A stretch of DNA of 64,000 nucleotides from Yarrowia lipolytica. Its lineage: Eukaryota > Ascomycota > Dipodascomycetes > Dipodascales. Below, piece by piece: positions 6,967 to 41,769 of the stretch; positions within the stretch are counted from its first letter, which is position 1; every line of letters starts with the position of its first letter. The position numbers and the translations under genes are program-made. The stretch spans positions 2,850,501 to 2,914,500 of the forward strand of contig NC_090772.1 of the NCBI RefSeq assembly GCF_001761485.1, given 5' to 3'. The notes under the pieces were generated by a model. The model was not told the origin of the DNA. It did not search any database and worked only from the letters and a program-made list of their open reading frames with translations.

Positions 6967-7220
6967 TTTTTTTGTCCTTCGATCACAGAAATTTCACCTT
7001 ATGCGAAGAGACCGAACTACTTTTTGCTTCCGACGAAAATATCCCAGTTCTTCATGCTCATAGGACACCAAAAGAGATTCCTCTAATAGTGAAAATCATG
7101 AAGTTTGTTTTTGGCTGTAGCATCTACAACCATCCAAGCACGAGTGCTGTACCCACGGATCTATTTAGTCAGAGGGAGAATACGAAACAAAAAAACAACA
7201 GTAACATCAGTCACGTGATA

Positions 7221-7301
7221 CTCCGATACGGGGAATCGAACCCCGGTCTCCACGGTTCTCCACATGAGAGCGTGATGTGATAGCCCCTACACTATATCGG
7301 A
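7221..7301 (-). tRNA. tRNA-Glu (CUC), with 9-nt intron
   Basis: Read on the minus strand: acceptor TCCGATA pairs with TATCGGA, discriminator G (7221). The anticodon loop CTCTCA-C gives anticodon CUC. It is split after position 37 by a 9-nt intron, TGTGGAGAA (7264-7256), whose GAG can pair with the anticodon. T-arm CGGGGTTCGATTCCCCG. A T-run about 20 nt downstream could terminate Pol III. A second copy with a different intron lies at 35566-35646. Confidence 0.93.
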
Positions 7302-34141: not shown

Positions 34142-35442
34142 GGTCGATAAAATGCTTGCACGTGTGGGACGACATTGTCAGCCCTTCAGTGTATATATAC
34201 GGACATTCCACCGTGTAACTTCACGCGCCCGTATCTCGCAAACACATCCTATAGTAATGCGCCAGCGGAAAGTCTATGATTGTTACGATTCAAGACCCCA
34301 ACTTTCCCAAAAACTTTCGGAGCCTTGTGAGATAAGCCACAGGTTATCAGGCCTTATCGTTGAGCTGGAGAGAGTCGATATTGGGGCCCCCCGGAGCCGG
34401 GGTAAGTCTGAGTCATTTTATGAGTAAATTGCCGTTTTTCAGACCATGTTTGTATCAAAAATTATCAATCTCATGCGTGCCAAGACTCCGAGGAGCGCCA
34501 AGCCATCGCCAAGCTGGTATCGAAACCTACAGTGTTGTAGAAGTTTGTTTCGGGTCAAAGACAAAGGTGTTATCAGCTGGAAAGTTCCACTAAAACTGAT
34601 GCCCCGAGCCGTTCACGATTAACATGGTCCGCGTGGAAATGTCCCGCAGAAGACGACTGTATTAATTGTCAAGTTGCGGAAGGACTCTGTCAGGTATCGA
34701 TAATCAGATGAAAAGCTGATGGCTGAATTATTAGTTGAATCGGTAGAGATCTGTAATGTAATCTCTCAATCACGGTATCGGAACTTCCCTTCCTATCAAT
34801 CAACTTACGCTTTGGTAACAATAAGAATATCTACAAGTAATGACATCACCTCTAATTGGCCCACTCGGTTATACTATACATGGCACACCAGCCCTTATAA
34901 TCATATGTGAAGACAGGCGACTTGAGGAAAAGCACCCTGAGATAACTCCAAGAACGAACTGTGTTCAACTACACAGCCCCATATTTCGTTAGTATCAGCA
35001 ACAGGACATAACTCCTTACCACAACGACAGCAGCTTGCCCAAAAACATCGATGGATTCTGCTTCTCACTTTTCATTAATCACTCCACAAAGATCAACCTT
35101 TGAGTTAGCCGTAGATTGACCACGCACGGCACGATCTTCACGGAGGACTACACGAAGCATTATAGCTTCAGAGCTTCAGAGAATCTATCTGATTGAGTCT
35201 CGATCCCGGCTGTTTCCCTCTTGCCTTCGGATCGGAGAGTCATCAATGCTGATGTAAGAGTTCCCAGTACTACGACTGGGTGTATACGGCAAGTCTGAGA
35301 GTTGATGTGTAGATTTGTCAGTGTTCTTTGTAGTCCCTTTGGAATAGGTCCACCGATGCCACTCTTGCACAGTCCTTGAAGTTCGGTTTGAGGCCTGTCT
35401 CTCAAAGCACCTGTGATCCCCTAACAAAAATATAACCAAAAA
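34142..35442. other. Intergenic region OPT / 5S-tRNA locus
   Basis: About 1.3 kb. The left end is the OPT promoter. The remainder shows no gene; the right end is the 3' flank of the minus-strand 5S rRNA gene with its terminator T-run. Confidence 0.55.
34191..34200 (-). promoter_or_regulatory. TATA box of the OPT gene
   Basis: GTATATATAC 50-59 bp upstream of the ATG on the minus strand. A CACGTG core lies between at 34159. Confidence 0.55.
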
Positions 35443-35561
35443 AATTACAGCACCCAGGATTCTCGTATGGTCTCCCACTACAATACTAACTAGACTCTCT
35501 GGTGCTTGACTATGGCTGATCGGACGGGAAGCCGTATTTTCACCAGGATATGGCCGTAACT
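35443..35561 (-). rRNA. 5S rRNA, second cistron of a tRNA-Glu/5S fusion
   Basis: About 119 nt on the minus strand, from GTTACGGCCATATCC to GGGTGCTGTAATT. The conserved core includes GGCTTCCCGTCCGATCA and GTAGTGGGAGACCATACG, close to yeast 5S rRNA. It starts only about 4 nt after the 3' end of the tRNA-Glu gene (35566) with no T-run between. A seven-T terminator follows (35444-35438). So both should be made as one Pol III transcript from the tRNA promoter and then cut by RNase Z/tRNA processing. Such tRNA-5S fusions are known from Y. lipolytica. The exact ends could be off by 1-2 nt. Confidence 0.93.
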
Positions 35562-35565
35562 AGGA

Positions 35566-35646
35566 CTCCGATACGGGGAATCGAACCCCGGTCTCCACGG
35601 TGCTCTGAATGAGAGCGTGATGTGATAGCCCCTACACTATATCGGA
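35566..35646 (-). tRNA. tRNA-Glu (CUC), intron-bearing, first cistron of 5S fusion
   Basis: Same mature sequence as the tRNA-Glu at 7221-7301: acceptor TCCGATA/TATCGGA, discriminator G, anticodon CUC. The 9-nt intron is different (TTCAGAGCA, 35609-35601) but again carries GAG, able to pair with the CUC anticodon. The 5S rRNA gene follows about 4 nt downstream. The intragenic A and B boxes of this tRNA probably drive both. Confidence 0.94.
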
Positions 35647-35993
35647 ATATAAAAAAACTGTAATTTTTTATCCTACTTAGTGACATTAGCTTATGTAACC
35701 AACCGACAGCGCCCCGCAGCGCACATCGCAAAGATCCAGAAGTGTATGATTTATTGAACGCCAATAACCCGGCTTACTAGGTATATTGCTGTAATGAATT
35801 ATTAGAAAGAAAAAAAAGTATTTCTTTAGAATATAACAAAAGAAAACTGAAAGAAGCCAAATAATAAATAAACAAGATGAAAGAAGAAAAAAAAAGCGAG
35901 AATTGTGAGCCCAAGTGAATCATCTCCACTGCTGTTTCCAAGATATATTTTTATTTGATTCAAAGTCAATCAATTAATGTACAAAATGCAATG
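35647..35993. other. Spacer between tRNA-Glu and ITT1-like gene
   Basis: About 350 bp, A-rich between 35800 and 35900. It holds the 5' flank of the tRNA-5S unit and the 3' flank of the ligase gene. Confidence 0.5.
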
Positions 35994-39074: not shown

Positions 39075-41769
39075 GTTTGTGTGGACCTTTGCGTAGGTGC
39101 TGAGCTGTGGTGGTGTGTTGATAATTGGCCTGTAATAATTAGGCTGGTTGTATTAGCTGATGAGCTATGCTCGGTTATCATTATGAAGTCGTGCATGTGA
39201 ACCAAAGTTTGATTGGATTACGTCAGGTGCGGGGTGTGAATGGAGAGGTGGAATAGAACGATGCAGAGAGGCTGAGATACTGGGAACTGAAGCATTGAAT
39301 TTTCATGACTGCGTGTCACCCGATTACTGGTTCCACCTTCATCGCACGACTAGTACCAAGCCGTATATGGGCCACTCTTGCAGCACCCAAAATGGCAGGT
39401 TTGATGCTCGCCAAGCTAAATAGCCCAACTGTTGTCCGAAGGATGTGACTCGTATTCCGAGAGGAAGAACACGAAGGAAGGTCGCCTAGACGCCATATAT
39501 GGACGATTGGCTGTTAATTCGTCAAATTTCCAACTTCATACCTCTCTCCATACCTTTCCTACACGCAATAAAAGCCCCACTCAACATTGCTCCTGGTTGA
39601 AGCTAAATTGGCTGGGAAGACAAGGGTGTATGATGCCAGGCGCAGGCAGTTGAACGGATATTAGTCAGATGGAAATGATATGACCTGATCGAAAAGAAAA
39701 AAAGATATTCTCGGTTTTGCTTCAGTCACGTGATACTCCACTCTCAGGGGGTGTTTCATTCTGGTCACGTGATCCGCATTTTCGGTAGGTGGCTGTTTCT
39801 CGGTTGAAGCAGAGTGGGGATCTGAAACTTCTCCTTTTATGTTTTATGACATATACGAACCAGTTGTACATGACATAATCACGTGCTGATGCAGCAATGG
39901 GATAATGATTATTTCACATATTTCGGTATGCAAACGTGATAGGTCTTAGTAAGCCGATTTGTCTCTGATATTTCAACGTGCAAAATCTCTCATACGCTCA
40001 GGATCTTCTTGTAGAGGGGAAAGAGTACATACAGTACGGTATGAGTGTTCGTGCGGGAAGGGTCGATCCACGACGGTTATTGTAGTACTTTTTTAAACGG
40101 TGATTATCCTGGCGAGTGACCAATAACCAAATGGAGGGAGCCCATGTCGTCCATTGGTATCTTCTGCTATATATCGGTCTGGTACGGATCTCAGTATCCC
40201 AGCGGTCAGAAAACTTCACTGTTCGGTAACGCAATCAGACACTTATTGAGGAATTCCCTTACACATCCCATCCCCCATCCACCAAGTGGGAACCCCAAAT
40301 GACCAGTATTTCAAACAGGCTCTTTTTTCATCAGATTTTGTACATGATCTCCGCCTGAGAGCACCTCAACGGAACTACACGGAGGTTTCAAAGCCTGTGA
40401 GACCGCAGAAATCTGACCAAAAACAGGAAAGCCCCAGTCGACATTTCCCTTTTAGATATCGTAGCCGCTCCTCGTTCATCCCATCTTCCCGAAGATGAAA
40501 ATGTTTGAGCCGCACGGGTTCGGCTTCCGGGAATACATAAGCTCGAACCCTGTGGAAAGGGTGAGCTGAAATGGGTGTTAGCTTGGATATCAGACAGATC
40601 TTGGACATCTTACTTCTGATATTAATGTGTTGCATTGTTCTCCCCTTTGTTTATTTTCATTCACTATCTCATATTATCTCTCTGACCTATCCCCCTCATC
40701 TCGTTAATGTACCTCGACTGCAGCTGTGATGCAGGGATGGCTTATCAGTGAGAGACCGACTTTCAGAAGAACTGCCTGACTTTCTTGGTCAATACAGTGA
40801 TATGATACTTGCATCGGAGAGTGGTGAAATAGGTTCACGTAAATGCGGAAAGTGTATCAAGTCATGGCCAAACTTCAGTTCCAAGTGACAAGGTAAAACA
40901 GGTTTAGTATCATCAACTATCCTAACGATTGGCCAATGAACTCGTTGAAACGGGTTTTCTCAAGAATATTGTAGAAGCGTGATCTCATTAACCTTGCTAC
41001 TAGTACTCGTGCTTACCCCCAAGACTCTGGCCTTTTCCGAGTCCAAGGATTCCGGCTTTCTAAATAGAACGCTCTGTTATTAGCCGGAATCCAACACATG
41101 TCCAGGGTTGCTCAGATGCAGGGGTACGGGCAGGAAGCGTCGGAAGAGAAATGCGGCAACGAAATCTCAACCGGAAATGTTGTCAAGGGTTTGGCCCCTT
41201 TTTTACATTTTCAGAGCCAATTCGTATCCGTCTAGTTCCGTCGAGGTTCATTCAAGGCGTGATTTACAGCCTCTTTCTTCTGAAAGAAAAACACTAGTCA
41301 AACGGGGTTCCCATGTTCTGATTCTTGAAAAGATGGCCTAACCTGAGAGAATGGCATAGGGACAGTGTTAGTCGGTGTCCCGTCTGTAAGAAGTCTCTGT
41401 TGTGCTTACGCACATCTATATACAGTATGTACAATACAATATTAACATCCACACGAAGTAGCCGTTCCTTAAACATCCATGTCAACATAATTCTGACTGG
41501 TTTTCACCACCTACGCTAGCCTCTTATGCTCAGAACCGACCCATTCTCAGCTTTCTTCTTGGTTCTGGGGAAATACATCTCAGTTACTTTTTCAAGACCT
41601 ATAAACAATGCTAAATCCACATCGGACTCGGATTCTAATTTTCAGAAAAGCATAGAGCAATTGTGCTCGCGGTTTCCGCGATTCTTCTTTTAGAACGGAT
41701 ATAAAGTGAATTTTTCACCTTCACGTGACATATTAGTTCCAGTATATACATCCAACACCCAAAGTTGAC
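39075..41769. other. Gene-poor region, left part
   Basis: About 2.7 kb with no supported gene. Visible are three CACGTG cores (39727, 39766, 39880; the first two in TCACGTGA), a fourth TCACGTGA at 41721 just upstream of the 5S gene, and a few TACAGTA-type motifs. Short frames have no domain or signal. Confidence 0.6.
41721..41728. promoter_or_regulatory. TCACGTGA 42 bp upstream of 5S rRNA
   Basis: Perfect octamer just before a TATATACA-containing stretch (about 41743) and the 5S gene. A role in 5S transcription is possible but unproven. Confidence 0.35.

Follow-up and report, generated by a model that had tools for sequence, protein, structure and literature searches.

The tRNA-Glu and 5S rRNA genes that follow each other on the minus strand of the window (the whole 64,000-nucleotide stretch of Yarrowia lipolytica DNA analyzed here) constitute, with a probability that we put at about 0.93, a dicistronic tRNA-5S rRNA gene of the kind dispersed in this yeast: both parts would be co-transcribed from the tRNA promoter and the 5S rRNA would be made free of TFIIIA. 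We document the anatomy of the unit, a genome census of 5S copies, the absence of a CACGTGA element from its upstream slot, and a base pair in helix I of the 5S rRNA that is specific to gene class. On balance we favor the view that the fused genes form a 5S class of their own, with pair 5:115 setting tRNA-driven (A-U) apart from solitary (G-C) copies in nearly all cases, interior variants moving between the two classes, and with the two ribosomal 5S RNAs thereby recording their promoter.

Anatomy of the dicistronic unit

The upstream member is an intact tRNA-Glu(CUC) gene of 81 nt including its intron (35566..35646, minus strand; Rfam RF00005, 50.4 bits, and ARAGORN), and the downstream member is an intact 5S rRNA gene of 119 nt (35443..35561, minus strand) that carries A1-U119, A5-U115 and U68 and has a complete match to RF00001 (35561-35442, minus strand; 91.9 bits, model positions 1-120). 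Rfam and ARAGORN thus bear out the coordinates of the preliminary description, and the gap of about 4 nt that it reported is the spacer TCCT (35562..35565, minus strand). In the window scan, zero non-standard pairs are marked in the alignment of the 5S gene to Rfam and two in that of the tRNA, which fall in the same columns as those of the unfused tRNA-Glu gene at 7301-7221.

Run on the whole window, ARAGORN calls the tRNA as Glu(CTC); given the sequence that precedes the 5S gene (L081, the window copy) and permitted to find introns, it calls tRNA-Ala(agc) with a 9-nt intron. We prefer CUC, the anticodon that our reading of the cloverleaf would place at tRNA positions 34-36. The same reading puts a 9-nt intron, TTCAGAGCA, after position 37 (positions 38-46; 35601..35609, minus strand), in keeping with the intron-bearing tRNA first described, and its removal leaves, as read from the sequence, a 7-nt loop CUCUCAC on the stem TCACG/CGTGG. 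Among seven other fused tRNA-Glu genes submitted to ARAGORN, the intron is of 9 nt in four, of 10 nt in one and absent from two. The element GGTTCGATTCC (35577..35587, minus strand) is presumably, on the known consensus, the B box of the tRNA promoter and hence a TFIIIC site.

A seven-T terminator had been placed after the 5S gene. The run is present as a predicted Pol III terminator (T7, 35438..35444, minus strand), but it overlaps the gene, its first two T being the last two 5S bases. The reported lack of a T-run between tRNA and 5S is equally real but makes a weak argument. Among the 17 other tRNA-Glu places that were fetched, 15 are readable and unfused (L139 is fused and L153 is unreadable for its extra bases), and in these 15 the first run of four or more T (T4+) begins 3-35 nt downstream, with none in the first 4 nt in 14 of them. 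Because tRNA-Glu genes of this genome have a distant terminator in any case, a T-free spacer of 4 nt proves little on its own; what counts is that no T4+ run occurs from the start of the tRNA to the last bases of the 5S gene.

Chance is excluded as the source of this arrangement, since two full-length RNA genes stand in register and the layout is repeated in 46 of the 103 5S copies of full length. As a single strand, the unit shows no folding gain over its shuffled versions (z -0.11). A 12-nt perfect inverted repeat, AAAAAATTACAG/CTGTAATTTTTT, brackets the unit (35658-35669 and 35439-35450); we take it as a chance occurrence, its core AAATTACAG being found within 200 nt upstream of the 5S gene in the window copy only, out of 31 gap-free fused copies.

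Fused 5S rRNA genes across the genome

The genome searched comprises 20.5 Mb in six contigs (labeled by C and a number), the window being C3:2850501-2914500. Two 5S pattern searches gave 100 and 92 places; all 100 and seven further stretches, with the eight places new in the second search, were retrieved (census loci are designated by L-numbers). BLAST of the retrieved loci gave 109 matches, from which six partial ones were dropped to leave 103 full-length copies, 60 of them gap-free (31 fused and 29 solitary), where a copy counts as fused if BLAST aligns 40 nt or more just upstream of it with one of five tRNA references taken from these loci. On this count, which is a lower bound given that L139, a tRNA-Glu-5S fusion with sequence errors, was missed by both pattern searches, 46 of the 103 full-length copies are fused: 29 to tRNA-Gly, eight to tRNA-Glu, seven to tRNA-Asp, one to tRNA-Thr and one to a tRNA called Phe by ARAGORN (L117), which we take, from its stem and terminal U, to be an intron-bearing tRNA-Gln(CUG). 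The 46 include L060, with its truncated tRNA-Gly, and the degenerate pair L097, while L137 holds a tRNA-Gly plus a 5S fragment. The first 39 bases of the window tRNA-Glu occur at 25 genome places with up to three mismatches, and with L139, which emerged from this tRNA-Glu search, at least nine of the 25 are fused. In the first 100 loci ARAGORN makes a tRNA call in 44, with no further tRNA family indicated; some of its calls (Ala, Arg, Asn, Pyl) are in our view misreadings. Although the preliminary description singled out the window locus as the most unusual gene structure of the window, it is not exceptional in the genome, with 46 of 103 full-length copies fused, plus L139 and L137.

The fused units are alike in layout. 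The spacer of the 31 gap-free copies measures 4 nt in 23, 5 nt in seven and 6 nt in one, and comes in 22 distinct sequences, a uniformity of length despite varied sequence which suggests either that length matters for processing or that the units have a common origin. No internal T4+ run is found in 42 of the 46 fused units, the exceptions being the degenerate L097 and three copies with gaps relative to the consensus (L105, L128 and L136), and all 46 have a T4+ run at the 5S end or within 20 nt after it. Near the ends of contigs C2 and C3, loci L131 and L132 contain two 5S-like matches each; in L132 both matches are truncated, in L131 one.

Recent segmental duplication was considered as the source of the fused copies and rejected: among the 30 gap-free, non-degenerate fused copies whose flanks were compared, only two pairs have downstream flanks in common (L034-L037 and L073-L074). 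Common upstream flanks are more frequent, and those of the window copy fall on an interspersed repeat of about 120 bp (35697-35817), which about 50 bp separate from the fused tRNA-Glu downstream of it. This repeat has at least 44 matches in the genome (40 of 98 candidates were scored), several of them less than 1 kb from other 5S or tRNA-Glu places, and is possibly a solo LTR targeting Pol III genes.

A helix I pair that follows gene class

An unexpected result of the census is that pair 5:115 of helix I divides the gap-free copies by gene class, being A-U in 29 of 31 fused copies and G-C in 29 of 29 solitary ones (p 4e-15; like the other p-values given below, this Fisher probability assumes independent copies, whereas related copies are not independent). 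Two fused copies depart from the rule: L053, a tRNA-Thr fusion with G-C, and L097, which is degenerate. In the full set of 103 copies, A5-U115 is found in 43 of 46 fused copies (the third exception, L107, has gaps) and in two of 57 unfused ones, the other 55 having G-C (52), A-C (two) or an unscorable pair (one). The window copy shares the A5-U115 signature of the other fused copies, a feature that was found here and does not come from the literature. Both unfused A-U copies, L093 and L115, have an identical 91-nt stretch at their 5' end, and the A at position 5 belongs to this stretch, so that only U115 is telling in these two cases. A genome search locates the stretch in three places (L055, C2:1222707; L093, C4:1303458; L115, C6:803102), each time directly before a 5S gene whose first bases it replaces; in L060 just the final part of the stretch is present, attached to the truncated tRNA-Gly.

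Pair 1:119 follows class less strictly. Among gap-free copies it is A-U in 21 and G-C in eight of the 29 solitary genes, and G-C in 27 of the 31 fused ones. A1-U119 occurs in a single one of the 46 fused copies, that of the window, where it stands alongside A5-U115; three fused copies (L109, L110 and L126) have G1-U119, which could represent the intermediate step. Inside the molecule, positions 70 and 107 (opposite each other in the alignment to Rfam, whose consensus does not pair them) show C-G, U-G and U-A as common states in both classes; U68 is found in the window copy only, among gap-free copies. The edges of the 5S gene thus follow class and its interior is common to both, a pattern to be expected if conversion tracts rarely reach the last few bases of the 119-bp homology. 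A5-U115 is best read as the mark of one founder 5S gene that later came to lie behind several tRNA families, and the distribution of variants as conversion between fused and solitary genes that reaches the interior and seldom the last few bases at the edges. Recurrent mutation through G-U offers an alternative to conversion tracts that spare the edges.

A competitor of the founder mark is selection, with A5-U115 maintained because 5S rRNA is cut from a precursor, or assembled differently, when it derives from a fused gene. That the pair is compensated and has been kept, across several tRNA families, in 29 of the 31 gap-free fusions speaks for such a constraint, which we nonetheless regard as unlikely. 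When the pair was swapped in silico in the 29 gap-free A5-U115 precursors, predicted formation of helix I was not lost (mean pair probability 0.957 in real and 0.969 in swapped precursors, with mixed results between copies), and the idea that A5-U115 helps the fused precursor to fold was accordingly discarded; the tRNA-Thr fusion L053, moreover, retains G5-C115. A founder mark preserved at the edges of genes that undergo conversion in their interior is the reading that we retain.

The class-specific pair suggests that dispersed copies may be homogenised inside while their edges remain distinct. It could also serve as a barcode of the promoter class behind a 5S molecule and, if so, sequencing of mature 5S RNA would measure directly the share that comes from the TFIIIA-independent route. 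As a built-in label, the helix I pair might thus give the 5S share of each promoter type in ribosomes, and its change with growth or without TFIIIA. The titles and abstract openings of the literature searched contain no description of the A5-U115 split; the text of the 2008 paper on the dicistronic genes lies outside that scope, and we make no claim that the split is unreported.

Upstream context and proposed transcription and processing

Where present in solitary 5S genes, CACGTGA lies about 50 bp upstream, and the window contains a representative of this type: the solitary 5S gene L082 (41770..41888, plus strand; RF00001, 97.9 bits), with A1-U119 and G5-C115, has a sequence match to TCACGTGAC at -49 (41721..41729, plus strand). 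CACGTGA occurs at -75..-25 in 26 of 57 solitary and in none of 46 fused copies (Fisher p 7e-9), an absence that follows from the layout, with the tRNA occupying the slot; farther up, at -165..-115, it is found in six of the 46 fused copies. The strict motif is missing from 31 of the 57 solitary copies. That CACGTGA is a signal of 5S genes only is ruled out by the excess of TCACGTGAC at other places in the window (11 matches in all over the two strands, against 0.82 expected) and by the occurrence of CACGTGAC after unfused tRNA-Glu genes, where it begins 0-4 nt past the end of three of the 15 readable genes (L138, L151 and L143, the last at 7210-7218 of the window). L143 is the unfused tRNA-Glu(CUC) gene of the window (7221..7301, minus strand; Rfam), with no 5S gene after it and its first T4+ run 26 nt downstream.

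Co-transcription and TFIIIA independence are taken here from the literature and not from the window. Between them, passages of papers that cite the 2008 study, PMC13130702, PMC2911113 and PMC3369914 among them, describe 5S genes of Y. lipolytica as fused to and co-transcribed with tRNA genes, TFIIIA-independent, and present in a species in which TFIIIA can be deleted; the preliminary description was right to recognize the locus as a fusion of this kind, and the single Pol III transcript that it derived from the tRNA promoter, giving both tRNA and 5S rRNA, fits a sequence that has no T4+ run ahead of the end of the 5S gene and whose upstream slot is free of CACGTGA. We infer the processing steps and the use of this route at the window locus. 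TFIIIC, bound to the A and B boxes within the tRNA-Glu gene, would position TFIIIB upstream of the tRNA; transcription by Pol III would then run across the tRNA, the spacer of 4 nt and the 5S gene and end at T7. A cut by RNase Z, the tRNA 3' processing enzyme, at the tRNA end would free the tRNA, to be spliced afterwards, and leave a 5S rRNA with about four extra 5' nucleotides, to be trimmed later. With Pol III driven from the tRNA promoter through the 5S gene, the 5S rRNA of the fused unit would need no TFIIIA.

The two genes might instead be neighbouring but separate units, with TFIIIA still directing a separate start at the 5S gene and with the tRNA transcript ended or cut at the junction. 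Such an internal start is compatible with the sequence: among gap-free copies, positions 45-100 (without the polymorphic position 70, and with L097 excluded) agree with the consensus in 27 of 30 that are fused and in all 29 that are solitary, so that the interior of the fused genes is close to that of solitary ones and TFIIIA could bind it. Decay of the internal promoter in the fused copies is not shown by the same numbers (three of 30 off consensus against none of 29, p 0.24). Yet both genes are complete and lie on the same strand, 4 nt apart and with a single terminator; 5S upstream elements have no room; no T4+ run precedes the 5S end in the window unit; the spacing is 4-5 nt in 30 of 31 gap-free fused copies; and literature passages citing Acker et al. 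2008 state TFIIIA independence. We therefore judge separate units very improbable and adhere to co-transcription from the tRNA promoter.

Quality of the assembly

Small gaps relative to the consensus affect 43 of the 103 full-length 5S copies. They are short, scattered and mostly insertions, and at some loci (e.g. L039, L066 and L109) they extend to the adjoining tRNA, and a reading as 5S introns or decay was therefore rejected. We read them as errors at assembly junctions, the genome being taken by inference as the CLIB89 assembly, for which the relevant part of PMC5014426 describes a PacBio junction consensus, with an estimated error of 8%, between Illumina contigs, as well as refinement of the junctions with Illumina reads. 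On the other hand, the 91-nt stretch is identical at L055, L093 and L115 despite their gapped 5S copies. That the fused layout or the class signature should itself be an artefact of assembly, as 43 gapped copies in 103 and a junction error of about 8% (per the same part of PMC5014426) might insinuate, is scarcely credible given that the A5-U115/G5-C115 split is sharpest in the 60 gap-free copies, that the window copy is gap-free in a window with 27 open frames of at least 200 aa, that published work on Y. lipolytica describes the same layout, and that PMC5014426 reports, in that part, the Illumina refinement.

Comparison with known systems

Dicistronic tRNA-5S genes of Y. lipolytica are already known as a kind and were published in 2008. 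The study in question, that of Acker et al. (NAR 36:5832), reportedly found 48 of 108 5S copies to be fused, and our census (46 of 103) is close to this figure. The window locus is thus one more instance of a known TFIIIA-free route to 5S rRNA. It resembles the dicistronic genes described for the species in having a tRNA directly upstream of the 5S gene on one strand, at one of many scattered loci; we found no structural difference from them, the A1-U119 of the window copy being unique among the 46 fused copies. Passages of PMC13130702 report 116 dispersed 5S genes in strain E150, and place about half of the 5S copies in fusions, to be compared with 46 of 103 here. For CLIB89, PMC5014426 gives, in the portion on Pol III genes, 111 5S genes and seven pseudogenes and terms dimeric Pol III genes abundant. 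As portrayed there, these dimers resemble the window unit in having two genes a few nt apart with the tRNA first, and differ from it in a separation of 5-26 nt and in the shortened T tract that follows the first gene, as opposed to 4 nt and no T-run; the second member of the tRNA-Trp dimer in that portion is RUF70, where the window unit has a 5S gene. Trichomonascus vanleenenianus, according to the passages of PMC13130702 devoted to it, has a tRNA followed closely by 5S, as at the window locus, and carries the arrangement further, with all of its 5S genes in tandem with a tRNA and 1-3 bp away from it, in comparison with 46 of 103 copies and a spacing of mostly 4-5 nt in the genome analyzed here.
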